Source of the DNA: a virus
Virus record (IMG/VR): IMGVR_UViG_3300025141_000805
Span: 1 to 22,958 of that record
Direction: 5' to 3' (one strand)
DNA: 22,958 nt
The position numbers and the translations under genes were made by a program. Of this stretch, positions 3,568 through 21,721 are shown one piece after another. Position 1 is the stretch's first letter. Every line of letters begins with the position of its first letter. The notes beneath the pieces were generated by a model. It ran no database searches. It had not been told where the DNA came from and saw only the letters and a program-made list of their open reading frames with translations.

Positions 3568-4866
3568 ATGGCACAACCTACCTTAAGACCCGTATCCCAA
3601 ACGAGCGCCGTTACGCTCAATTCTAGCAGCGTACCTAGCGATGTAATAGACAACACGGCATTGCCATTTCAAATGTATTCTGACTCTACGTCGGCACTAT
3701 TTTCTCAATACTTTTGTTCAGGCGCCGCAGAACAGGTTGCTTACACGTATAAAAAGCTTGGCGGCGATGTATTAGACATAGAGTTGACTAGCGGAAGTGT
3801 TTTTTCGGCATATGAAGAATCTGTCTTAGAATATTCTTATATTCTCAACATCCACCAAGCGAAAAATACACTATCAGACCTGCTGGGAGCAACGACGGGC
3901 ACTTTCGATCAGGATGGGCAAATACAGAGTGATGATTCTCTGTATGGGAAGAACATCAATCTTAAATATCCTCGTTTTGAATTTGCATACGCTCGCCGCG
4001 TCGGATATGGCACCTCGACGGAAATCGGCCTTGGCGGAGAGGTTACGATATATTCTGCGTCCTTTACGGGGTCGACCGGTATACAAAGCTACGATTTACA
4101 GAAAATTATTTCTTCATCTGCGGCCAACACCGCATCTTTAGATTTTTATGGAAAAGTTGGCGATAAAAGAATCAACATAACAAAAGTTTACTATAAAACA
4201 CCACAGGCTATGTGGAGGTTTTATGGATATTACGGTGGATTAAACACCGTTGGTGATTTATCGAGCTACGGTCAATGGACAGATGACTCTACCTTTCAAG
4301 TGATACCGGTATGGCAAAACAAAGCACAATCCATGGCTTTTGAGGACGCAATATATACAAGGAATTCACAGTATTCATATGAAATAAAAAATAATAGATT
4401 AAAAATATTCCCAAGCCCGGTGGAAACGAGCCCAAAGACGTATTGGTTAGAATTTTTCGTAGATCCAGATCCGTGGGACGAGGGCGACACCGAGGGCCGC
4501 GGCGGCGGCACACAAACGAACGGCATTAACAACTTAAATACGCTTCCTTTTGAAAATTTACCGTATGAAAATATTAACGCAATTGGAAAACAGTGGATTA
4601 GGCGCTTTGCGTTGTCTGTGTCTAAAGAAACTTTAGGTACCGTTAGAAGTAAGTTCGCCACCATACCAATTCCTGGCGATAGTGTAACTTTGGACGGCAA
4701 AGATCTTATTAGCCAAGCCCAAACGGAACAAAAAGATTTAAGAGAAGAGTTGAAGACCATTTTAGATGAGTTGACGTACACAAAATTAATGGAAGACGAT
4801 GCAAAATTGATGGAAGCAGTCAACACACTCGATAAACATATCCCATTAAAGGTGTATGTGGGGTAA
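3568..4866 (+). CDS. gp13: Neck protein, gp13-like head completion protein
   Basis: Probable neck protein joining portal and tail. It is the first of three consecutive genes that parallel T4 13-14-15. The 432-aa product is longer than T4 gp13 (about 309 aa). The C-terminal third carries the family pattern: a KQWIRRFALSVSKETLG helix, a PIPGDSVTLDG stretch like the LPGGVxLNG block of gp13 proteins, then a charged helix (DLREELKTILDEL) and a final PLKVYVG. The N-terminal part (about 60-120) contains YEESVLEYSYILNIHQAKN, a helical segment I associate with head-tail adaptors of uncultured T4-like phages. The start at 3568 follows GGGAGGAG (3551-3558). An ATG at 3564 in another frame gives only 20 codons. 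Residues 305-320 are a Gly/Asp-rich loop. Confidence 0.72.
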   Translation: MAQPTLRPVSQTSAVTLNSSSVPSDVIDNTALPFQMYSDSTSALFSQYFCSGAAEQVAYTYKKLGGDVLDIELTSGSVFSAYEESVLEYSYILNIHQAKNTLSDLLGATTGTFDQDGQIQSDDSLYGKNINLKYPRFEFAYARRVGYGTSTEIGLGGEVTIYSASFTGSTGIQSYDLQKIISSSAANTASLDFYGKVGDKRINITKVYYKTPQAMWRFYGYYGGLNTVGDLSSYGQWTDDSTFQVIPVWQNKAQSMAFEDAIYTRNSQYSYEIKNNRLKIFPSPVETSPKTYWLEFFVDPDPWDEGDTEGRGGGTQTNGINNLNTLPFENLPYENINAIGKQWIRRFALSVSKETLGTVRSKFATIPIPGDSVTLDGKDLISQAQTEQKDLREELKTILDELTYTKLMEDDAKLMEAVNTLDKHIPLKVYVG

Positions 4867-6346: not shown

Positions 6347-9300
6347 ATGTCTTATAGAAAATTTAAGTTTGTATCCCCGGGGATTTTTATCACCGAGATT
6401 GATAATTCACAATTGCCAAAACAGCCCACCGCGATGGGCCCGGCGATTATCGGAAGAACGGCGAGAGGCCCAGCTTTAAAACCCATTCAAGTTAATTCTT
6501 TTGAAGAGTTTCTCGACATCTTTGGAAAACCGATTCCTGGCGGCCAAGGCGGCGACGTTTGGCGATACGGAAACTTCACGGCTCCTACTTATGCGGCATA
6601 TGCAGCCCAAGCGTGGCTTCGAAACAACTCCCCAGTTACGATGGTTAGGTTGCTGGGCCAAACGAACAAAGACGCTACCAGCGACGGCTACGCCGGCTGG
6701 AAAACAGACAACACTGGAAATACGGATACCGCTAGTACCAACGGCGGAGCTTTCGGCTTGTTCATTTGCGAAGCAGACGCTGCAACGGCCATCGGTCCGG
6801 TTTCCGCGTCCATGGACAGTCCTATTGAAGGCACCCTCGCTGCAATTTGGTACCTTAACAAGGGCGCCATTGCACTCTCCGGACAGACAATCTTAACGGG
6901 GTCTTCCACTTACGACAAAGCGTGTGCAACGTGGATGCGAGCTGTCGATACTGGCCCAGCTTTCAAAGTCGTTGTACAAGATAGCGATGGTAACACGGTT
7001 GTTGACAGTTCATTTGATTTTGATTCTAAGTCACCACGGTTTATTAGAAAGGTGTTTAACACTAACCCAACTTTGACTAATAGCACCTTAAACTCGACTG
7101 GCACTCTTGATTATTGGCTTGGAGAGAGCTTTGAAGGCCATGTTAATACATTTGTCGCCAACGATCCAGGCGGCGCCTCCGGCATTAGCGGCAGCGCGGC
7201 CGGCTCTACTTATGGCATCATACTACCATTGGCAAGCCCCAACGGCGACATTAAAGGCGGCGACTTCACAATGAGCACCTCGAAAAGCCCAAGTGGCCAG
7301 TTCGCTAAAACGGGCTGGTTTATTACTCAGGACATAGGCGGTGACACCGCCTCTTACAACCCAGAAGCCCAACAGAAACTATTCCGCCTTTGTGCAAGAG
7401 AACTTGGCGAGGAGACGCAAAGAAAAATCAAGATATCACTTCAGGACATCAAAGTAAGTCCGGATCCAAGCAATCCGTACGGAAGCTTTACGGTTGCGAT
7501 TCGCAATATTAAAGATATCGATACCGCCCCGGACATATTAGAACAATATAACAATTGCAGTTTAAATCCGGCTTCTGATAACTATATTGCCAAAAAGATT
7601 GGTAATAAATATGAGGAGTGGAACGATACTGACCGCCGCTATCGCTATTATGGCGATTACGCTAATGTTTCTGATTATGTGTATGTTGAAATGAACGAAC
7701 AGGTCGACGCCGCGGCCACGACAGCGGAATATCTCCCATTTGGAGTTTTCGGACCACCACGTTATAAAGGATTTGCAGCATCTGGGTCTGCAATGTCGGT
7801 TTATAATCAGCCTGCCGAGCCCATCGGGGACGAGTCTAGTGGTTCGTTTATTAGATCTGGCAGCGCAAACCCAATCACTACACATTCTTTAAATGGTACG
7901 TTCTTTTCCTCAAGCGAAGGAACGACCGTAAAAGCACAATACAAGTTCCCTCTTTTGCGGCTTCGAGCAAGTTCTTCCGAGGGCAACCTCACGGACGCGA
8001 AAGATGCCTACTTTGGTGTTGACACCACATATAGCACCACGCACGCTAGGTTTGATGCAAGTGTTTACGAGCTTTTACGAACAAAAGCCGATGATATTAA
8101 TGGCCACGACGCGAATGGGAAGACAACAGAAGCTTCTTGGGTTTTCTCCCTCGATGATGTTAGAAACATTACAGTTAGTGCCTCTTCTTACACTGGAGAC
8201 TACAAGGATGGCGCCGTTTGGCAATCAGGATCCCGAGCTAATGGAATTTCTTTCACCGCTCACACCGGATCTGGCAATGGCGTCGTCGGAAGCACCGCAA
8301 CCACTAAAGGACCGGCCACCGCCTCTTACCAAAATGTTATTGATGATGATAAAGGCGGCGTAAAGGCCGGCTGGAACCGGTTCACAACATGTTTGCACGG
8401 CGGTGCAGATGGAGTGGACATTACAGAAATGGACCCCTTTAATAATGCAATTATAGAGGGCAAGACAGAATTAAACAGTTCTGCATACAATGCCTTTAAT
8501 GTGGTCATCGATTCAATCAGAGATTCTGAAATTGTCGAATACAATTTGGTGACCGCGCCCGGCATGACCAACAATACGCTTAACTCGAAGCTTGTACAGA
8601 TGTGTGAGAACAGAGCGGATGCGTTGGCAATTATTGACCTTAAAAATGGCTATACGCCAAGGGCAGAGTCGGACAAGACGAGATCTCAAAGAAAAGGTAA
8701 TTTGACAAATGTTGTTAGCAACAAGAAAAATAATTTGCTAATTGACAGCAGTTATGGTTGCGCTTACTACCCGTGGGTCCAAATTCGAGATACGGTCAAC
8801 GGCGCCACTTTGTGGGCGCCCCCATCAATCGCTGCTTTGGGCGCAATGTCTTATGGCGAAGCGACTGCGCAGCTTTGGTTTGCTCCCGCGGGATTTACTC
8901 GTGGCGGTCTAAGCGCTAACCGCGCCGCCGGCGTCCCAGTTGTTGGCGTAGAGCAACGTCTCACCTCCAAGGAGAGAGATAAACTTTACGAAGCAAATAT
9001 TAACCCAATCGCAGCGTTCCCGGCTGAAGGTATTGTAATATTCGGACAAAAGACGTTGCAATTAACGCCTTCTGCGCTCGATAGAATTAATGTGCGTCGA
9101 CTCGTGATATATCTGAAAAAACAAATATCAAGATTTGCGGCCACGGTGCTGTTTGATCAAAACGTCCAGACTACCTGGAATAGGTTTAAATCAAAAGTCG
9201 AGCCATTCCTTAGCGACGTAAAGGCTGGATTGGGTATCACGGAGTATAGACTGATACTGGACGAGACAACCACGACACCAGACCTCATTGATAGGAACAT

Positions 9301-9397
9301 CATGTATGCTAAAATATATGTGAAACCGGCCCGGGCCATAGAATTTATTGCAATTGATTTCATTATTACGGATTCAGGAGCATCTTTTGAAGACTAA
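6347..9397 (+). CDS. gp18: Tail sheath protein, gp18-like, very large
   Basis: Contractile sheath subunit. The 1016-aa length far exceeds T4 gp18 (659 aa). The N-terminus has the sheath signature: KFVSPGIFITEID, then GPAIIGRTARGPALKPIQVNS and FEEFLDIFG, and AWLRNNSPVTMVRLLG near 90. The C-terminal core is equally clear: YYPWVQIRDTVNG and WAPPSIAALGA (about 803-825), NPIAAFPAEGIVIFGQKTL (about 885), LDRINVRRLVIYLKKQI (about 907) and a terminal NIMYAKIYVKPARAIEFIAIDF strand pair. About 600 residues in between (roughly 110-740) are rich in Gly/Ser/Thr/Asn/Asp and probably form extra domains on the sheath surface. It starts after GAGGAGAAAT, 37 nt downstream of a CTATTTATT element. Confidence 0.93.
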   Translation: MSYRKFKFVSPGIFITEIDNSQLPKQPTAMGPAIIGRTARGPALKPIQVNSFEEFLDIFGKPIPGGQGGDVWRYGNFTAPTYAAYAAQAWLRNNSPVTMVRLLGQTNKDATSDGYAGWKTDNTGNTDTASTNGGAFGLFICEADAATAIGPVSASMDSPIEGTLAAIWYLNKGAIALSGQTILTGSSTYDKACATWMRAVDTGPAFKVVVQDSDGNTVVDSSFDFDSKSPRFIRKVFNTNPTLTNSTLNSTGTLDYWLGESFEGHVNTFVANDPGGASGISGSAAGSTYGIILPLASPNGDIKGGDFTMSTSKSPSGQFAKTGWFITQDIGGDTASYNPEAQQKLFRLCARELGEETQRKIKISLQDIKVSPDPSNPYGSFTVAIRNIKDIDTAPDILEQYNNCSLNPASDNYIAKKIGNKYEEWNDTDRRYRYYGDYANVSDYVYVEMNEQVDAAATTAEYLPFGVFGPPRYKGFAASGSAMSVYNQPAEPIGDESSGSFIRSGSANPITTHSLNGTFFSSSEGTTVKAQYKFPLLRLRASSSEGNLTDAKDAYFGVDTTYSTTHARFDASVYELLRTKADDINGHDANGKTTEASWVFSLDDVRNITVSASSYTGDYKDGAVWQSGSRANGISFTAHTGSGNGVVGSTATTKGPATASYQNVIDDDKGGVKAGWNRFTTCLHGGADGVDITEMDPFNNAIIEGKTELNSSAYNAFNVVIDSIRDSEIVEYNLVTAPGMTNNTLNSKLVQMCENRADALAIIDLKNGYTPRAESDKTRSQRKGNLTNVVSNKKNNLLIDSSYGCAYYPWVQIRDTVNGATLWAPPSIAALGAMSYGEATAQLWFAPAGFTRGGLSANRAAGVPVVGVEQRLTSKERDKLYEANINPIAAFPAEGIVIFGQKTLQLTPSALDRINVRRLVIYLKKQISRFAATVLFDQNVQTTWNRFKSKVEPFLSDVKAGLGITEYRLILDETTTTPDLIDRNIMYAKIYVKPARAIEFIAIDFIITDSGASFED

Positions 9398-9450: not shown

Positions 9451-10083
9451 ATGGCTGGAAATCAATTCTGGAGTTCTACAACGATCGACCCCAAACGAAA
9501 TTTTCGATGGGTGTTAGTCTTTGATCAGATTCCCACTTTTGTGATCACCAAGGCCGCGAAACCAAGCTTTGAAGTGTCGAGTGTCGGGCATCAATATGTT
9601 GCTCATAAGTTTAATTACCCTGGCAGAGTAACATGGTCGCCTGTTGAAGTCACTCTTGTCGACCCCGTGTTTCCAGACGCGTCAGCTAAAATAGTTAAAA
9701 TCTTGGCTGCCTCTGGCTATGCAATTCCGGGCACAGAAGCAGATGGTACCATTTCTATGGGTAAGCGAGACGCTGTTGCGGCCGTTGGAGTACCAGCGAT
9801 ATTACAGCTAGATGGCAAAGGCCGCACGGTTGACAGATGGACACTCCACAACGCTTGGATATCCAAGGCTAGCTTTGGCAGTTTAGATTACACCTCAGAA
9901 GATATGATCAATGTCACATTAACTTTCACGTACGACTGGGCAGAATATTCAGGCGCCCCCGCTTCGGTTGACAATCCGACACCGAATTTGATTTTGGGCA
10001 ATGGCCCCGATCAATTGGGAACTATTGAAAAATATCAAGAAGAAATGGGGCAAATTGTAAACACATCTGGCCTCAATCTTTAG
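9451..10083 (+). CDS. gp19: Tail tube protein, gp19-like
   Basis: Subunit of the rigid inner tube that the sheath drives through the envelope. The 210-aa product (T4 gp19 163 aa) opens with FRWVLVFDQIPTFVITKAAKPSF, the tube-fold start in which a first strand presents the protein to the ring. It continues with PGRVTWSPVEVTLVDP and closes with WTLHNAWISKASFGSLDYTS and DMINVTLTFTYDWAEY, the long strand pair typical of this family. It follows the sheath gene as in T4 (18-19). The start has AAAAGGAG upstream and a CTATTTATT element 29 nt before it. The C-terminal 35 residues past the fold form an extension. Confidence 0.9.
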   Translation: MAGNQFWSSTTIDPKRNFRWVLVFDQIPTFVITKAAKPSFEVSSVGHQYVAHKFNYPGRVTWSPVEVTLVDPVFPDASAKIVKILAASGYAIPGTEADGTISMGKRDAVAAVGVPAILQLDGKGRTVDRWTLHNAWISKASFGSLDYTSEDMINVTLTFTYDWAEYSGAPASVDNPTPNLILGNGPDQLGTIEKYQEEMGQIVNTSGLNL

Positions 10084-10099
10084 TTAAAGAGACAGGACA

Positions 10100-10837
10100 A
10101 TGACTAATCCAAACTTTTTTTCCCCCGGTTCTTGGCAATTCTGGAGCAACCCTTCGGTAAGGCCTAAAAGAACCTTTGAGGGGATGCTTTTGTTCGGGGA
10201 TGTAATATTCGGCGGCGCGGGCGCAAATAGTTTTCCTCCTTTTATGGTTAAAAGTTTCAGCAGACCAGGGTATACTGAAATAAGCACACAAGCTGGAGAG
10301 TATCAATTACGAACTGGTGACTTTGCTCGCATAGATTATCCGACGCAAGGGTTTGCTACAAAAGATTTGAATATTACTTTAGCAGATGTGAATATTCTTG
10401 GCCCAGAGGGAGCCGATACAGCTGGGCATGTGAACACTTCATTGACAATGATGCAAAAAACATGGACATACGAAGAAGTAGCCATGGGCACGGAAGAGGG
10501 ATCCGAAAACGACGCATATCAACGTTTTATAGATGGGTATATTGCTGGAAACCCTCAAATTATCACCATTCTTGAATTAGATGGGAATGGCGGCGTCAAT
10601 GGAGAGTGGAGCATATACAAACCCGTACTAAGTGCGGTCAAATTTTCAGATTTTAATTACGAAACCGAGCAACTTGCTAGCATAGATTTGACATTTAAAT
10701 ATAAAAATTTTAAATTCACACAAGGCTGGAGCGAAAAAGAGCTTGATATGAGACTAAATGCAGCTTCTAAAGAGCGGCAACAAGTGATTAGTAATTGGAT
10801 TGAACGCGGTTCAAAATGGTTGGCTAGTACTTATTAA
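10100..10837 (+). CDS. Second tube-fold protein, gp19/gp54-like paralogue
   Basis: A 245-aa protein with the same layout as the preceding tube protein. It has an N-terminal SxRPKRTFEGMLLF strand, FPPFMVKSFSRPGYTE matching the tube protein's TKAAKPSFEVSSVG region, TKDLNITLADV matching WSPVEVTLVDP, GEWSIYKPVLSAVKFSDFNYE matching TLHNAWISKASFGSLDY, and LASIDLTFKYKNFKFTQG matching INVTLTFTYDWAEY. A longer helix-rich centre (about 115-150) differs. In T4 the tube protein has relatives at the baseplate end (gp54, gp48), so this may be the tube initiator or a specialised ring; an ordinary second tube protein is also possible. It starts 16 nt after the tube gene with a weak AGGACA site. Confidence 0.7.
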   Translation: MTNPNFFSPGSWQFWSNPSVRPKRTFEGMLLFGDVIFGGAGANSFPPFMVKSFSRPGYTEISTQAGEYQLRTGDFARIDYPTQGFATKDLNITLADVNILGPEGADTAGHVNTSLTMMQKTWTYEEVAMGTEEGSENDAYQRFIDGYIAGNPQIITILELDGNGGVNGEWSIYKPVLSAVKFSDFNYETEQLASIDLTFKYKNFKFTQGWSEKELDMRLNAASKERQQVISNWIERGSKWLASTY

Positions 10838-10867: not shown

Positions 10868-11734
10868 ATGAGCGCAAGATCAAACGAAGATAGACTTGGC
10901 ATCGCTGCAGGCCAGTCGGAAGAAAATAGTTTACAGCAGCCCACCCTGGAGGGTGGCACTTTAAAGTTTATAACTCCGACTGAGTTTGTAGATCTACCAA
11001 GCAAGGGGGAGTTTTATCCACCGAACCACCCCCTTCACAAACAAGAGGTCGCGGAAATTAGACATATGACCACGAAGGAAGAGGACATTTTAACATCTAT
11101 AACACTGTTAAAGAAAGGTCTCGCACTTGATAGAATGCTGGAAAGTATTTTAGTGGATAAAAGAATAAAAATAGACGATTTGCTGATGGGGGATAAAAAC
11201 GCGCTCATCATCGCGGCCCGGACTCATGGCTATGGTCCAATATACGATACACACGTTGAATGTCCCAACTGTTCAAACAGGCAAGAATATTCATTTGATA
11301 TGGGCGCTTTGGAATGTCAAAGCGCGCCAAGCGAACTTATGTCTAAGCGCGCCATTCAAAAAACTGAGGTTGGGACATTTTTAGTGCCAATTCCACAAAC
11401 TGATTATGTCGTCGAAACACGCCTTTTAACGGGGCATCACGAAAAGAAAATCCTTGAGATTCAAGAACATAAAAAACAAAGAAATTTTCATGAAACAACC
11501 GCGACCGATTTTCTTAGGGCAATAATCGTTTCAGTCAATAATATAGGTGATGAAAAATCTATAAATGAGTTTATTAATAGTTTGCCGGCATTACACGGTC
11601 GCTATTTAAGAAGAACATATGAAAAGGTCGTTCCAGCTCTCGACATGAAACATTCATTTATTTGCGCATCTTGCAACCACGAGGGGGTTTTGGAGGTCCC
11701 CCTCAATACAGACTTTTTTTGGTTTAACGCATGA
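10868..11734 (+). CDS. Baseplate hub factor, gp26-like (T4 baseplate protein family)
   Basis: Member of the T4 baseplate protein family that includes gp26, an assembly factor of the central hub. The 288-aa product shows the family start FITPTEFVDLPSKGEFYPPNHPL, then IRHMTTKEEDILTS, a helix ending VDKRIKIDDLLMGDKNALIIAARTHGYG, a CPNC knuckle (about 137-140) and a second CASC knuckle near the C-terminus. Together the four cysteines could bind one zinc. The frame ends in DFFWFNA at a run of seven T, just where a start-less ORF in the +1 frame continues, so a longer fusion product is likely made by frameshifting. It lies directly upstream of the tape measure gene. GAGG 6-9 nt before the ATG sets the start. 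Confidence 0.8.
   Translation: MSARSNEDRLGIAAGQSEENSLQQPTLEGGTLKFITPTEFVDLPSKGEFYPPNHPLHKQEVAEIRHMTTKEEDILTSITLLKKGLALDRMLESILVDKRIKIDDLLMGDKNALIIAARTHGYGPIYDTHVECPNCSNRQEYSFDMGALECQSAPSELMSKRAIQKTEVGTFLVPIPQTDYVVETRLLTGHHEKKILEIQEHKKQRNFHETTATDFLRAIIVSVNNIGDEKSINEFINSLPALHGRYLRRTYEKVVPALDMKHSFICASCNHEGVLEVPLNTDFFWFNA
11681..11722 (+). promoter_or_regulatory. Putative programmed frameshift site
   Basis: Seven T residues (11714-11720) are read as TTT TTT TGG in the gp26-like frame. A peptidyl tRNA-Phe on TTT 11717-11719 can move +1 to TTT 11718-11720, or -2 to TTT 11715-11717, with full re-pairing; both lead to GGT at 11721. A perfect 7-bp stem GAGGGGG/CCCCCTC (11681-11687 with 11698-11704) ends 9 nt before the run, and its loop carries GGAGG, a Shine-Dalgarno-like sequence. 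I infer recoding because the downstream conserved ORF has no start codon. A one-base homopolymer sequencing error would look the same. Confidence 0.6.
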
Positions 11735-11900
11735 ATACATACAACAAGTTTATGAGCAATTTTTTCTGTTAAAGTATTATGGAAATTGGACACTTCTAGA
11801 ACTTTATAATTTACCAGTAGGTTTGCGCAAGTGGTTTTTCGAAAGATTTGTTAAACAGAAAGAAGACGAAGCAGAAGCGCGCAAACAAACCAAGCGATAA
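11721..11900 (+). CDS. gp51-like ORF without a start codon, frameshift-fused extension
   Basis: A 59-codon coding stretch in the +1 frame relative to the gp26-like gene. The product reads EYIQQVYEQFFLLKYYGNW, then LLELYNLPVGLRKWFFERF and a charged tail KQKEDEAEARKQTKR. The YGNW...YNLPV-LR-WF-ER pattern is one I associate with the small gp51-like baseplate hub assembly proteins of T4-like marine phages. The frame is open from 11649 but holds no ATG or GTG and no TTG before the conserved block, so independent initiation is unlikely. A translational frameshift at the T7 run is the simplest route. A two-form protein ahead of the tape measure also fits the tail assembly chaperone arrangement of many tailed phages (lambda G/GT, P2 E/E', and the -2 shift of Mu). 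Confidence 0.68.
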   Translation, partial: GLTHEYIQQVYEQFFLLKYYGNWTLLELYNLPVGLRKWFFERFVKQKEDEAEARKQTKR

Positions 11901-11955: not shown

Positions 11956-14001
11956 ATGACCAAGGAACAAGCAGCCCAACTTAATGCGATACTGGAACAA
12001 GTTAAAGCATCCGGAATCGAATTAAACACATCAATCAAAGAAGCGAATAAAGCGCTTCAGGCGCAGGGCACTCAGCTAAATCAAAATCGACAAGCGGCGC
12101 TTGATATGGCGCAAGCCTTGGTTGATGGCCGCGACGCCATCGAGGCAGCTGCCGAAATAAATCAGAAAGTATACTCCACGCTGCAAGAAGAAAACACCCT
12201 TAGCGAGCAAAAACTACTCCTGCAGCAAACTCTCCTGGCCGGCCACCAAGAAATATCTCAAATAGTAGAATCCAACGCAGACGTATCTGCTGACGAGTTA
12301 GAAAAACTCAGCGAAGAGTTAACAGGCCTTCAGCAAAAAGTTAAACTTCAACAACAAGTTAAAACAGAGACGGAAAAAACAGCTCAGCAAACACTTCTTG
12401 CTTCGAACTATGTAAATATACAAGAAAAGGCTGTTGCGAAAGTCAAGCAAGGTGTAGAAGCAACGGGCGGTATTCTAACCGGCATTTATGACAAAATCAA
12501 AGGCGGTGCGCAGTACGGTGCGCAGTTCGTCGCCGGCACATATATGGGCGCAAAAACATTGATCGATGCCACCGGCCAAGCGAAAGCAGCATATACCGCA
12601 CTCGATCAGTTAGGAGCTTCCTTTAGGAGAAACACAGGCCTCGTACTTGATAGCGATTTGGCGATGAAAAAATTTACAGATCGTATAATTGAGAGCGCGC
12701 GGAACCAAGTGGCATTGGGCGTCACAACAAAAGATATGGGTACCGCATATGCCAAAATGATGGAAGACTCTCGCACCTTTGGGCTCCTTATGGCCGACAA
12801 CACAGAGGCGAGCGAAATGCAAGTAAAAATACTTGCGGAACATGCCGCCAAAGCTGAAAAAATGGGGATTTCGCTTAAAACCACAGCTTCCGTGGTAGAG
12901 CTGGTTGGCAAAGCGTACAGAGAACAGGATTTGGCCATGGAAACCTCGCGCATTAGCGAAGAAATGATAAATCTTGCGCGCGCCACCGGCCAAACGGTGG
13001 ATAAAGTCGGTCAAGACGCGGTGAAGGCATTTGATAAATTAGCGGTGTATTCACTTCCGCAGGCGACTAAAATATTTAAAGAACTAAGTGTTACCGCTTC
13101 TCAAACAGGTATCTCGGTCGACGAATTGCTGAAAGGGGTAGCGAAATTTGATGATATGGAAAAGGCGGCGGAATCAGTTGGTGATTTGAACGCAATGCTA
13201 GGAGGTCCGTATTTAAACACTTTGGACTTGGTGAATGCGACTGAAGAAGAAAGAATCGCAATGATACGGGAGGCCGTCGAAGCTAGTGGTGAAAGTTTTG
13301 ATGAGATGGACCGCTTTAAACAAAAAGCTATAGCTGCAGAAATGGGCCTAAGCGCACAACAGGCAAAAGCATATTTCGGTGTATCGCAAGCAGCTATCGA
13401 CACAGCCACGGCCGGAGTCGACCAAAATAAGTCGACAATGAAGGATCTTCAAGATGCAGCGGAAAAAAATGCAGTAAGCATGAAGGATCGTTGGGGTGCA
13501 GCCCAAGAAAGTGTAGTTATGGTCGAGGGCGCCCTGCAAAATGTCCAGAGCGCCTCTAACGCGGCTTCTGAGGCGGTTGCCAAAGCCGGCGGTAAGATCC
13601 GAGAAGCGCTGGCGCCGACGATTGCGAAAATGTCGAAAGAAATGTCGACGGCGATAACGGAACAGGCTGGAAAGCTAAAAAACGCTAAAAACCTCGCCGA
13701 TATGATTCAAATTATTGGTGAATTGGGAACCAAGGCGCTTGGAATATCATGGGACCAAGTGACGAAGATGGGGACCGAAGGTGCGCCAAGTATTGCAACC
13801 GCCCAAGAAGGCCCGGGCCTAGAAGAAAGATTTATGAAAGAGTTCACCGGCGCGCCCGGTCAGCCCGCAGCCGTTGGGCCTGGCGGCGGAGGCGGCCGCA
13901 TTGTAATTGAGAATAAGATGTATCTAGATAAAGATATCTTATGGCAGAAGATCGACGAAAAGGTTAGTTTTGAAATCCAAAGAGCTTTGGAGAGTCAATA
14001 G
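11956..14001 (+). CDS. Tape measure protein (gp29-like role)
   Basis: A 681-aa, mostly helical protein whose extended length would set the tail tube length; T4 gp29 in this role has about 590 aa. Residues 1-150 are Gln/Glu/Ala-rich heptad-like helices. A small Gly/Ala-rich segment (about 170-195, with GAQYGAQFVAGTYMGAKTL) could contact membrane. The middle (200-480) contains repeated helix-turn units such as FGLLMADNTEASE and KTTASVVELVGKAYRE. The C-terminus has a GPGGGGGRIVIENKMYLDKD hinge followed by a short amphipathic helix. Position after the hub factor/chaperone-like pair and before baseplate genes is the classical tape-measure location. The start is 31 nt after a CTATTTACA element, with AAGAAGGG upstream. 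Sequence identity to T4 gp29 is not evident. Confidence 0.78.
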   Translation: MTKEQAAQLNAILEQVKASGIELNTSIKEANKALQAQGTQLNQNRQAALDMAQALVDGRDAIEAAAEINQKVYSTLQEENTLSEQKLLLQQTLLAGHQEISQIVESNADVSADELEKLSEELTGLQQKVKLQQQVKTETEKTAQQTLLASNYVNIQEKAVAKVKQGVEATGGILTGIYDKIKGGAQYGAQFVAGTYMGAKTLIDATGQAKAAYTALDQLGASFRRNTGLVLDSDLAMKKFTDRIIESARNQVALGVTTKDMGTAYAKMMEDSRTFGLLMADNTEASEMQVKILAEHAAKAEKMGISLKTTASVVELVGKAYREQDLAMETSRISEEMINLARATGQTVDKVGQDAVKAFDKLAVYSLPQATKIFKELSVTASQTGISVDELLKGVAKFDDMEKAAESVGDLNAMLGGPYLNTLDLVNATEEERIAMIREAVEASGESFDEMDRFKQKAIAAEMGLSAQQAKAYFGVSQAAIDTATAGVDQNKSTMKDLQDAAEKNAVSMKDRWGAAQESVVMVEGALQNVQSASNAASEAVAKAGGKIREALAPTIAKMSKEMSTAITEQAGKLKNAKNLADMIQIIGELGTKALGISWDQVTKMGTEGAPSIATAQEGPGLEERFMKEFTGAPGQPAAVGPGGGGGRIVIENKMYLDKDILWQKIDEKVSFEIQRALESQ

Positions 14002-18276: not shown

Positions 18277-19665
18277 ATGGCCGATATTAACATACCCCCC
18301 TTTGGTACTAACTCCCTAGAAGCATCTGCACTATTTGAGCAAAGGCTGCGCTATCGAGAAGAATCCTTTTCTAGACTTTTCGATCCCACTCCCTTGGACA
18401 TTCTATATGAAAAGCCTTTTTATGGTAAAGTAGATATATATGGGACCCCAATATATCCTTCTGAAATAAACATGGTACAACTTCCAGGTCCGGGACTAAT
18501 TCTGGCTTTGGATTTTGTTGCCGCGGCCTTCCGGGACTTTAAACATTTTATAGACAAGTGCGCGGTGGTCAAAGGAAGGAGTTTTGCAGATTTGTTTCCC
18601 TCGTTTACGCCAAAGTCTGCGACTCAGAATTTTCATCAAATGTATAATGATCATTTTGTTAAAAATGTCTTTAACGTTTTTTCGAATTCGTACATCCAGG
18701 TACCAAAAATCAACAGAAAAATCAAAAACTTTGACGATCTGACGAGAGAGTTTCTGCAATTCGCTAAAATGATGGTAGGAGAGTTTCCGATTACAAAGAC
18801 TGGTTTTATTGTATCTCCGCACTGCACAAACGCAATTAGCGGTCTTTTTATTGAATTGTCGGGCCCGTCTTACGATAACGATCTCGTTAAATTTGAGCGA
18901 TTTATTTCAAAACCCTCTTTCAACGATTATATTAAAGCTGCATCCGGGTTCGGATTCTATGTAGACAAAAATATTCCATGGAGAATCGCAGTTAATATGG
19001 ACTCGCCAGTGACCAAAGATTATATGACGGCCTTTGGTGTAAGCCTTGACGATAACAGTGTTTTTTCTAGCTATTTCTATGAAAGTGAATATTTTTCGTA
19101 CGAAAGTATGAAGGCACGCCTTTTTAATCTGTATTCTATCTTGATGGCCAACCCACGCAGCAGAACTTACGGCTCAGTGTACGAAACTAAAAATTGCCCC
19201 ATAGCGACGTGGGATAGCGTTCTTAATGGCAATTACAAAATAATAACAAAAGAAACCCAAAGAGAACCAATCCCCGTTTATTATGACCAAAAGGAAATAC
19301 CCGTAAATTTTGAAGGCCCACCGCCAGAAACTTTTGATAAGAAATATAATGATGAGTATTTTTTACCTATTTATTTTCAATTAAGGCTAGCCGAGAGCAA
19401 AATCAGGTACAGGCAGCGCGAATATAAATCGCACATGAGAAAAATATTAAATTTTTATAAAGTTTTTGGTGCTGAGTCCGCGGTGTCATATATAGGGCAT
19501 TTGACAAAACAAACAAAGATATATGAAAAAATACCAGACGACAGAAAGCCACCCTACAATATAAAATATTTTGGCGATTCCACAAGTTCTGGCTTGTATT
19601 CTTACGCAGAACCTGCTATAATAAAAAAAGAAAAAATTAGTGACCCTGACGCCACTGAATATTGA
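18277..19665 (+). CDS. Unrecognised 462-aa protein, probably virion-associated
   Basis: I do not recognise this family. The protein is soluble-looking, rich in Phe/Tyr (for example SVFSSYFYESEYFSYES near 265-281) and has no signal peptide or transmembrane helix. Its N-terminus, NIPPFGTNSLEASALFEQRLRYREESFSRLFDP, is followed by a segment with GPGLILALDFVAAAFRDFKHF. The C-terminal half has a long basic helix, LAESKIRYRQREYKSHMRKILNFYKVFG. Being last of the baseplate block, it may be a baseplate or neck structural protein. The start uses GAGGAAA (18261-18267). Its last 70 bases contain a sigma70-type promoter for the polymerase, and its stop codon overlaps an alternative TTG of that gene. Confidence 0.75.
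   Translation: MADINIPPFGTNSLEASALFEQRLRYREESFSRLFDPTPLDILYEKPFYGKVDIYGTPIYPSEINMVQLPGPGLILALDFVAAAFRDFKHFIDKCAVVKGRSFADLFPSFTPKSATQNFHQMYNDHFVKNVFNVFSNSYIQVPKINRKIKNFDDLTREFLQFAKMMVGEFPITKTGFIVSPHCTNAISGLFIELSGPSYDNDLVKFERFISKPSFNDYIKAASGFGFYVDKNIPWRIAVNMDSPVTKDYMTAFGVSLDDNSVFSSYFYESEYFSYESMKARLFNLYSILMANPRSRTYGSVYETKNCPIATWDSVLNGNYKIITKETQREPIPVYYDQKEIPVNFEGPPPETFDKKYNDEYFLPIYFQLRLAESKIRYRQREYKSHMRKILNFYKVFGAESAVSYIGHLTKQTKIYEKIPDDRKPPYNIKYFGDSTSSGLYSYAEPAIIKKEKISDPDATEY
19594..19622 (+). promoter_or_regulatory. Sigma70-type promoter for the polymerase gene, extended -10
   Basis: A perfect TATAAT at 19617-19622 is preceded by TGC, making an extended -10, with TTGTAT (19594-19599; 3 of 6 with TTGACA) exactly 17 bases upstream. 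Transcription would begin near 19629, about 40 nt before the polymerase ATG. It lies inside the 3' end of the preceding gene, so it would give early, host-polymerase transcription of replication genes from within the late cluster. Confidence 0.68.
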
Positions 19666-19670
19666 CCGGA

Positions 19671-20855
19671 ATGATTTTTCAAACCTTTGATGACAAAAGA
19701 GAATGTGTTGCCATCTATCAAGATGGAAAAATTTATAAGAAAAAGCCACGCCATCAATTAACAAAAACTTGGGATTACGCGGAGTCTCTCAAGGACAATC
19801 AGATTCAATACGCGAAATATTATTGTGGTGGGAAAAGTTTAGACGAAGCATGCCCCGAAAACCTAAGAGGAGAGTGGGAAGCGGTCAAGGAAAAACTAGA
19901 AGCTTTTAGGCGCTCCGTCGGCGAAGCGAAATTAAATCTGCGGGAACATTGCTTTTTTGATTTGATACCCCCCCATGTCTTATTAAACTATGGGCAGATT
20001 AAAAATAAGATCTGCAACCATGTTTTTGCAACCCAGGCCAAACCAGAAAACTATGATCATATGGTAGATCTTGTAAGGGTTTTGACGGAAATAAAAAATA
20101 CAAAATTAAATATTGATTTGACTCCTTTAGAAGGGCGACGACATGAATTCAAGGCACGCCAATTCCTCAAAAAAATAAGCAACATAGAGCCCTATATAAC
20201 ATATGATATGCGCGGCACCAAAACTGGAAGACTCACTTCAAAGGCCTTTCCAATATTAACGATGGACAAGGAATACAGAACGATTTTAAAACCCAACAAC
20301 GAGTGGTTTCTTGAATTAGATTACAATGCGGCTGAGTTGCGTGTTATGCTTGGACTCCTAGGTGGCGGACAACCAAACGAAGATTTGCACGATTGGAACC
20401 TGAAAAATGTTTTTAAAAATGGTGGCACAAGAGAAGAAGCAAAGAAAAGAGTGTTTGCGTGGCTGTACAATCCCGAGTCAAAAGACCGCCTCTTAAACAA
20501 AGAATATGATCGAGACTCTGTGTTACAAAAGTACTACAATGGAAGCCAAGTGACAACCCTTTGGAACAGGACAATTGATTCTGATGATCATCACGCTTTG
20601 AACTATATAATTCAGTCAACAGCGGCGGACCTCTTCCTTCGGCAGATGATTAAAGTTTGGGAACTACTTAAAGATAAGGAATCTCAAATCGCGTTTTGTT
20701 TGCATGACTCTTTGGTAATTGACCTAGCAGAAAAGGATCAGGTGCTGGTACATGAGATAAAAGAAGAGTTTGCCAACACAGAACTTGGCACCTTTAAGGT
20801 GAATGTCTTTGGTGGGAAAAACTTTGGCGAGATGAAAAGGATGAACGTAAGATAA
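19671..20855 (+). CDS. polA: Family A (Pol I-type) DNA polymerase, polymerase domain only
   Basis: Replicative or repair DNA polymerase of family A. In 394 aa it keeps the active-site set (E. coli Pol I numbers in brackets): R187 in TGRLTS (R668); motif A D217 and E222 in LDYNAAELR (D705, E710); O-helix R254, K258, F262, Y266 (R754, K758, F762, Y766); N311 and Q315 in NYIIQSTAAD (N845, Q849); and motif C H345-D346 (H881, D882). DLHDW matches the DIH motif. No 3'-5' or 5'-3' exonuclease domain is encoded; the first 130 residues are thumb-like at most. O-helix glycines G763 and G767 are replaced by Ala and Asn. I prefer the ATG at 19671 over an in-frame TTG at 19662 that overlaps the previous stop. 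The next gene overlaps by one base (TAATG). Confidence 0.92.
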   Translation: MIFQTFDDKRECVAIYQDGKIYKKKPRHQLTKTWDYAESLKDNQIQYAKYYCGGKSLDEACPENLRGEWEAVKEKLEAFRRSVGEAKLNLREHCFFDLIPPHVLLNYGQIKNKICNHVFATQAKPENYDHMVDLVRVLTEIKNTKLNIDLTPLEGRRHEFKARQFLKKISNIEPYITYDMRGTKTGRLTSKAFPILTMDKEYRTILKPNNEWFLELDYNAAELRVMLGLLGGGQPNEDLHDWNLKNVFKNGGTREEAKKRVFAWLYNPESKDRLLNKEYDRDSVLQKYYNGSQVTTLWNRTIDSDDHHALNYIIQSTAADLFLRQMIKVWELLKDKESQIAFCLHDSLVIDLAEKDQVLVHEIKEEFANTELGTFKVNVFGGKNFGEMKRMNVR

Positions 20856-21721
20856 TGCAGACCATAATTGGAATTGGAGAAGCCGGCTGCAACATCGCAG
20901 ATCAGTTTGCTAACTACCCTCAATATAAAATATATAAAATAGACACGGGCTTGCAAAAAGCGCCACGGTGCTACAATTTCCCGGAGTATGATCATCCTGA
21001 AAAGTATGAAGAGAATTGCCCCAGCCTGAAGCGTTTTTTTAAAAACGTAAAAGACGGCGTCCTGGTCGTCACAAGTTGCGGCCTTATTTCAGCCGCTATT
21101 CTTAGAATCTTAGAACAAATAAAGCACAAATGCCAAATAAGTATTTTATATATAAGGCCAGATCGTGCTTTATTGCCGGAATTGAAAACTCTGAATGATA
21201 ACGTCTTGTTTCACATCCTGCAAGAGTACACGCGCAGCGCGCTGTTTGAAAGAATATATTTAGTGGACAACGTGCAAGTATCTAAGATTGTTGGAGATGT
21301 CCCCATCCGCGAGCACTTCAACAAGCTGAATGAGTTGGTTGTGTACACAATTCACATGATGAACGTGTTTAATAACACGGAACCGGAGACCACTACATTT
21401 GCTCCATTTATAGAAACGGCCCGCATGACAACCTTCAGTCTGCTAAACTATGAAACTGGGGAAGAAAAACCATTTTTTGATCTTGACATTCCACGCGAAA
21501 AGAGATATTATTATGGAGTGCCTGAAAAGAGGCTTCAAACGGACGGTACTCTATTGAAAAAGATTGGGGAGCAATTAAAAGAACAGAAACAATATGATAA
21601 AATGATGATGAGCTACGCGGTTTTTTCAACAGACTACGAAGATGTATATGCGTTCAGTCTGTTGAATAGCTCAGTGGTTCAAAATAACAAGTTTAGGCTT
21701 GACAAAGATTTAAATTTATAG
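20855..21721 (+). CDS. Tubulin/FtsZ-fold protein lacking the GTPase glycine loop
   Basis: A 288-aa protein whose N-terminal 175 residues can be read along FtsZ. MQTIIGIGEAGCNIAD fits the T1 strand-loop (FtsZ VIGVGGGGGNAV), YKIYKIDTGLQ fits FFAVNTDAQ, and VKDGVLVVTSCGLISAAILRILEQIK (about 66-90) stands where FtsZ has DMVFI...GGGTGTGAAPVIAEIAK. ISILYIRPDRALLPELK, a helix and ERIYLVDNVQVSKI fit VAVVTKPF...ITIPNDKLLKV, followed by an H7-like helix (about 151-172). The GGGTGTG phosphate loop is degenerate (SCGLISA) and the NxDxxD T7 catalytic loop is not evident, so GTP hydrolysis is doubtful. It sits between polymerase and gp32, in one unit with the polymerase (1-nt overlap). A filament, scaffold or replication accessory role is possible but unproven. 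The assignment is by eye. Confidence 0.55.
   Translation: MQTIIGIGEAGCNIADQFANYPQYKIYKIDTGLQKAPRCYNFPEYDHPEKYEENCPSLKRFFKNVKDGVLVVTSCGLISAAILRILEQIKHKCQISILYIRPDRALLPELKTLNDNVLFHILQEYTRSALFERIYLVDNVQVSKIVGDVPIREHFNKLNELVVYTIHMMNVFNNTEPETTTFAPFIETARMTTFSLLNYETGEEKPFFDLDIPREKRYYYGVPEKRLQTDGTLLKKIGEQLKEQKQYDKMMMSYAVFSTDYEDVYAFSLLNSSVVQNNKFRLDKDLNL

Follow-up and report, generated by a model that had tools for sequence, protein, structure and literature searches.

The window analysed here, an IMG/VR fragment of 22,958 bases (record IMGVR_UViG_3300025141_000805, at its full length), very probably encodes the two-form tail assembly chaperone (TAC) of a marine T4-related myophage, whose long form would be produced by a +1 programmed frameshift. 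Judging from sequence comparison, we give this reading a probability of about 0.88. The locus lies on the plus strand and begins with a gp26-family open reading frame (ORF) of 288 aa (10868..11734), assigned as the short form (TAC-N) on the basis of PF12322, phrog_150 and an AF2 model. This ORF traverses TTTTTTTGG at 11714-11722, read in the 0 frame as UUU UUU UGG, where a P-site tRNA-Phe could pass from UUU to UUU by a +1 move; the run of seven T occupies 11714-11720 and the 0-frame TGA ends at 11734, 14 nt past the run. In the +1 frame the site reads FFGLTHEYIQQVYEQFFLLKYYGNWTLLELYNLPVGLRKWFFERFVKQKEDEAEARKQTKR and opens a gp51-like C-terminal domain (TAC-C, 11715..11900, stop codon 11898-11900) whose product runs FFGLTHEYIQQVYEQFF...LPVGLRKWFF and which, together with TAC-N, gives a product of 343 aa. 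A scan of the +1 ORF for starts found no ATG and no GTG, the only nearby start-like codon being a TTG at +109 from the slip site. Upstream, a Shine-Dalgarno (SD)-like GGAGG (11692..11696), 20 nt 5' of the P-site UUU and 17 nt from the T run, stands in the loop of a 7-bp stem GAGGGGG/CCCCCTC, the 5' arm (11681..11687) and the 3' arm (11698..11704) of which were both assigned from pairing within the clade and from a recoding test. The coordinates and counts that the original prediction had given for the T run, the stop, the stem and the GGAGG were all confirmed in the sequence.

The frame change was conserved wherever the junction could be read. A first scan of IMG/VR with the gp26-like protein as query gave 75 loci, 71 of them with an intact junction, and all 71 had the C-terminal domain at this position in the +1 frame, the slip sequence being TTTTTTTGG in 65 and TTCTTTTGG in 6. 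A wider set, obtained by a second IMG/VR scan with a broader alignment and by a DNA-pattern scan, comprised 226 readable junctions in contigs of many metagenomes; the frame change was +1 at the same site in 226/226, as the original prediction of a programmed frameshift joining a gp26-like protein to a start-less gp51-like domain would have it. No 0-frame or T6 version of the junction was present among these 226, so the frame change, whose conservation in relatives had been proposed as a check, withstood it. The DNA pattern contained the slip site, and the loci fetched by it were left out of the counts that follow, leaving 150 junctions and 126 unique contexts, with TTTTTTTGG in 115, TTCTTTTGG in 8 and TTTCTTTGG in 3. 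These sites, many of common descent, are not independent events, yet protein identity to the window drops to about 35%. Six loci that lack the C-terminal domain extend no further than the junction.

Purifying selection acts on the C-terminal domain (dN/dS about 0.03-0.17 where estimable), and its conservation is close to that of the N-domain, with mean column identities of 61% and 53%, respectively. The second Phe codon of the slip site is TTT in 53/53 sequences, compared with 84% of the Phe codons elsewhere in the genes. The frame change at the window site is not a sequencing error, nor is it peculiar to this one sequence.

The GGAGG and the hairpin are conserved beyond the need of the protein. 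Of 279 windows in the gene, the one formed by the last ten codons had the lowest synonymous divergence, at 0.59 of expectation (median 1.04). GGAGG was found at the offset of the window (-22) in 95/126 unique sites and at -28 to -30, 6-8 nt further 5', in 19 more. The Glu codon within it was GAG in 50/50 cases against 29% of the Glu codons elsewhere, and in 101/103 against 35% in the wide set. In the window clade, the 7-bp stem encloses GGAGG and stops 10 nt short of the run and 12 nt short of the P site; all 98 of its 98 cells were paired across 14 distinct sequences, with a double change from GC to AU in 4 and G-U in 3. The minimum free energy (MFE) of the window hairpin was -14.3, against a mean of -5.2 for synonymous recodings, only a fraction of 0.004 of which were as low. 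Most other sites instead carry a stem of 4-8 bp between GGAGG and the slip site, ending at most 4 nt from the latter, and unlike stems occupy this same place: CCGC/GCGG, CTGCCG/CGGCAG (in RNA CUGCCG/CGGCAG) and TCGGCGTT/AACGCCGA (in RNA letters UCGGCGUU/AACGCCGA).

A stem was found in 110/126 unique sites but in only 17% of the control windows taken from these genes, which bears out the upstream stem with GGAGG of the original prediction. Compared with synonymous recodings, 79/126 sites outdid 95% of them; by the MFE of the last 36 nt, the counts were 40/53 and 60/126. Few pairs vary within each clade and covariation alone is modest; the weight thus falls on the recoding test and on the unlike stems found at one place. 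Downstream structure was not enriched (mean MFE -8.2 against a background of -9.3). The distance of 17 nt between GGAGG and the run, noted earlier as longer than in dnaX or prfB, is part of a conserved arrangement of SD, hairpin and slip site and no weakness of this reading.

The N-domain belongs to a known family of T4-like tail proteins. It matched PF12322 (T4_baseplate) with an E-value of 3e-12 and 47.1 bits, against a curated cut-off of 24.5, and phrog_150 (baseplate hub) with an E-value of 2e-15. PF12322 is matched by both T4 gp26 and T4 gp51, whose genes are separate and divergent, and phrog_150 is spanned to its end by T4 gp51 alone (13-280 of 282). From these matches, T4 gp51 looks like a paralogue of gp26 with an extra C-terminal segment that other phages reach by frameshifting. 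When single T4 sequences were compared with the marine N and C profiles by hhalign, nothing was significant; PF12322 and phrog_150 provide the link to T4.

The two domains were modelled separately. The AF2 model of the N-domain (pLDDT 86) was compared with 852 solved chains, among which the HK97 tail assembly chaperone gp13 (2ob9) came best, with Z 5.8 over 87 residues and the next at 4.0; no other TAC structure exceeded Z 4 in the VIA-align list, and Foldseek placed HK97 gp13 fourth with an E-value of 1.7. The earlier analogy with tail chaperones gains from PF12322 and from this best solved match. The C-domain was predicted to form three helices, and its fold search returned no match below an E-value of 0.001, with a weak resemblance to cyanophage P-HM1 Gp51 at 1.3. 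In hhalign comparisons, it aligned with C-domains from other +1 phages at prob 98 and with those from cyanophages at prob 79 (E 2e-5), and the comparison with the tail of T4 gp51 alone was not significant; phrog_634 (gp51) was matched by 1/9 fused members (E 0.003). The original prediction had proposed two hub assembly factors, a view that we do not favour: a short and a long TAC fit better, since T4 gp26 and gp51 both belong to PF12322 and gp51 carries a C-terminal extension.

A tblastn search in a phage collection yielded 12 records, with no close relative among them. The C-domain was in the +1 frame in seven deposited genomes: Microcystis phage Mel-JY01, Flavobacterium phage immuto, Rhodothermus phage RM378, Bacillus phage SP-15, Listeria phage LIS04, Streptococcus phage GXN1 and the metagenomic LR756508, whose junction codons are AAC UUU CUA. 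In the 595-kb phage LR756511.1 (L083), the C-domain was in the -1 frame at GGT TTT TTC, at about 3690-3750. The N-domain tree placed the +1 phages on one side and the -1 phages with T4 on the other (support 90/89, not starred), and LR756511 was on the +1 side; its -1 junction among +1 relatives possibly marks a second change of direction. In public annotations, the frameshifted domain figures as a separate hypothetical protein, or a truncated small ORF is placed there (L078, 2890-3970; L079, 3833-3943; L080, 3836-3955). Campylobacter phage CP220 (L091, L100, L102), like T4, has two copies of PF12322, about 8.5 kb apart in CP220 and possibly a separate pair of short and long genes.

The original prediction had left the direction of the shift between +1 and -2. 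A -2 shift would move tRNA-Phe back two bases on the U run and give FFFGL instead of FFGL, as in Mu, where a -2 shift has reportedly been seen. On UUU UUU UGG, both moves re-pair well, and on UUUUUUU they re-pair perfectly, but the variants separate them. With UUC UUU UGG (TTC TTT TGG in DNA), a +1 move passes from UUU to UUU, whereas a -2 move at these TTCTTTTGG sites, 8/126 of the unique ones, would demand tRNA-Phe on UCU. UUU CUU UGG and the AAC UUU CUA of LR756508 likewise fit +1, TTTCTTTGG and AACTTTCTA being better suited to it; the slip-site variants all retain a UUU or CUU with which the tRNA can re-pair after a +1 move. The lack of enriched downstream structure also speaks against -2, as does the finding in a 70S system that an upstream duplex beside the E site, whether a hairpin or an internal SD pairing, stimulates +1 and opposes backward slippage (PMC6321510). 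The slip-site variants therefore favour +1 over -2, which we regard as unlikely; the +1 half of the earlier alternative stands. A canonical -1 heptamer (X XXY YYZ) with a 3' structure was not found either, every junction being +1.

It is similarly improbable that the C-terminal domain is a separate, internally started gene with GGAGG as its ribosome binding site. In 24/126 unique sites, the +1 frame does have an ATG or GTG at -8, which is 9 nt past GGAGG, but 98/126 have no ATG or GTG with an SD-like 4-mer at suitable spacing, and 31/126, the window among them, have no ATG, GTG or TTG from -41 to +28. Moreover, the U run is conserved, though initiation has no need of one. Slippage of RNA polymerase on the T run, producing mRNAs one U short, would suit the seven consecutive Ts of most genomes. 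The same frame change is nevertheless seen where the run is of four (TTCTTTTGG) or split into two runs of three (TTTCTTTGG), and such slippage would not predict a conserved GGAGG and hairpin, which together with the slip-site variants makes it very improbable. Homopolymers are prone to sequencing error, yet an error in the T run, or a decaying gene whose true sequence is one continuous ORF, has a negligible chance given that 226/226 junctions from many metagenomes are alike, that deposited phage genomes share the change and that dN/dS is well below 1.

Several observations weigh against a +1 frameshifted TAC. The Z of 5.8 for HK97 gp13 is middling and concerns only residues 25-125. The GGAGG lies 20 nt from the P site, compared with 3 nt in prfB, and is inside the hairpin loop in the window clade; the A-site codon UGG is a sense codon, not a stop; and 16/126 sites have only a weak stem.

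We infer that slippage of the ribosome itself takes place at the site. The majority of ribosomes would terminate at 11734 and yield the short form. In a minority, tRNA-Phe on the second UUU in the P site, with UGG in the A site, would slip forward by one base and re-pair with the overlapping UUU, GGU being decoded next. The +1 fusion from UUUUUUUGG would give the 343-aa long form, its C-terminal domain being helical. On the analogy of lambda gpG/gpGT, the two forms may act as chaperones that coat the tape measure protein, the extra domain recruiting tail tube subunits. As for the RNA elements, the hairpin refolding behind the ribosome and the GGAGG might push or strain the mRNA forward and so stimulate +1. 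At sites with the hairpin between GGAGG and the run, its end falls beside the E-site codon, and one may speculate that looping it out would bring GGAGG to within about 3-5 nt of the P site, a spacing close to that of prfB. In the window clade, where 12 nt separate the end of the hairpin from the P site, the hairpin may act differently.

Frameshifted TACs are classical in long-tailed phages (PMC5009743). Lambda gpG/gpGT likewise comprises a short chaperone and a long form rarely made by frameshifting, encoded immediately upstream of the tape measure gene (PMC5009743); its shift is -1 on a different slip site. Among T4-like phages, PMC10885494, citing Vladimirov et al. 2022, mentions some in which the short form has a gene of its own beside a fused gene for the long form, and PMC12846349 mentions poly-T slip signals in TAC-N genes. 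The strategy, which the original prediction had inferred for this T4-like lineage, is already reported in T4-like phages. T4-like TAC genes share the family, the place and the short and long forms with the locus described here. The family parts are joined by -1 in the cyanophages P-SSM2 and S-PM2 and in HTVC008M, Cr30, phiM12 and KVP40, mostly on U UUU UUC and with GGAGGG upstream in several, whereas here the shift is +1 on UUU UUU UGG with an upstream hairpin; in T4, the short and the long form each have their own gene, 26 and 51, where here there is one gene and a frameshift. According to papers that cite it, the study by Vladimirov, Gautam and Davidson (2022, Virology 566:9) treats frameshifting in T4-like TACs; it may already list some of the +1 groups.

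With bacterial prfB, the site has in common a +1 shift on a U-rich P-site codon and an SD-like sequence upstream; it differs in its A-site UGG, in its more distant SD and in its conserved hairpin. In PMC6321510, the duplex near the E site that stimulates +1 belonged to an engineered reporter, whereas here it is a conserved natural element. We found no description of a +1 TAC shift on UUU UUU UGG with an upstream hairpin in the open literature, which does not show that none exists. While frameshifted T4-like TACs themselves are known, the +1 class with its upstream signal of SD plus hairpin looks new.

The fused TAC-N/TAC-C gene sits directly upstream of a probable tape measure protein gene (11956..14001, plus strand, 681 aa), assigned from its position and weak similarity. 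The Pfam search with its product gave no match above the cut-off, and tblastn gave a weak match (E 0.002) to the Mel-JY01 gene at that place. The location before the tape measure gene, already noted in the original prediction, agrees with immuto, SP-15 and LIS04, in which the next large annotated gene at the homologous place is a tape measure gene. Elsewhere in the window, two adjacent ORFs (9451-10083 and 10100-10837) both match the tail tube phrog_4542 (E 1e-25 and 1e-5), indicating a duplicated tube protein, and 6347-9397 encodes a tail sheath protein of 1016 aa, longer than usual. A family A DNA polymerase piece of 397 aa (19662-20855) has a TTG start and overlaps the upstream gene by 4 nt. 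The N-terminus of the product of 20855-21721, MQTIIGIGEAGCNIADQF, resembles by eye a glycine-rich loop of the tubulin/FtsZ type; searches of Pfam, PHROGs and PDB sequences gave nothing significant for this product.

We consider the chances about even that a broad T4-related clade, with hosts including Bacillus, Flavobacterium and cyanobacteria, uses +1 for its TAC; that the shift in the marine lineage is driven solely by upstream elements, the SD-like GGAGG and a hairpin that refolds co-translationally beside the E site; and that +1, -1 or gene duplication, as in T4, divides the family. The set provides more than 100 divergent natural sites for +1 frameshifting at a sense codon, as well as natural data on an upstream RNA duplex as a +1 stimulator, the tests that we found having used engineered hairpins only. 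It also corrects the annotation of many phage genomes, in which the C-terminal domain has been missed or named a separate hypothetical gene or gp51. One gene family apparently attains the same two products by a +1 slip, a -1 slip or gene duplication.
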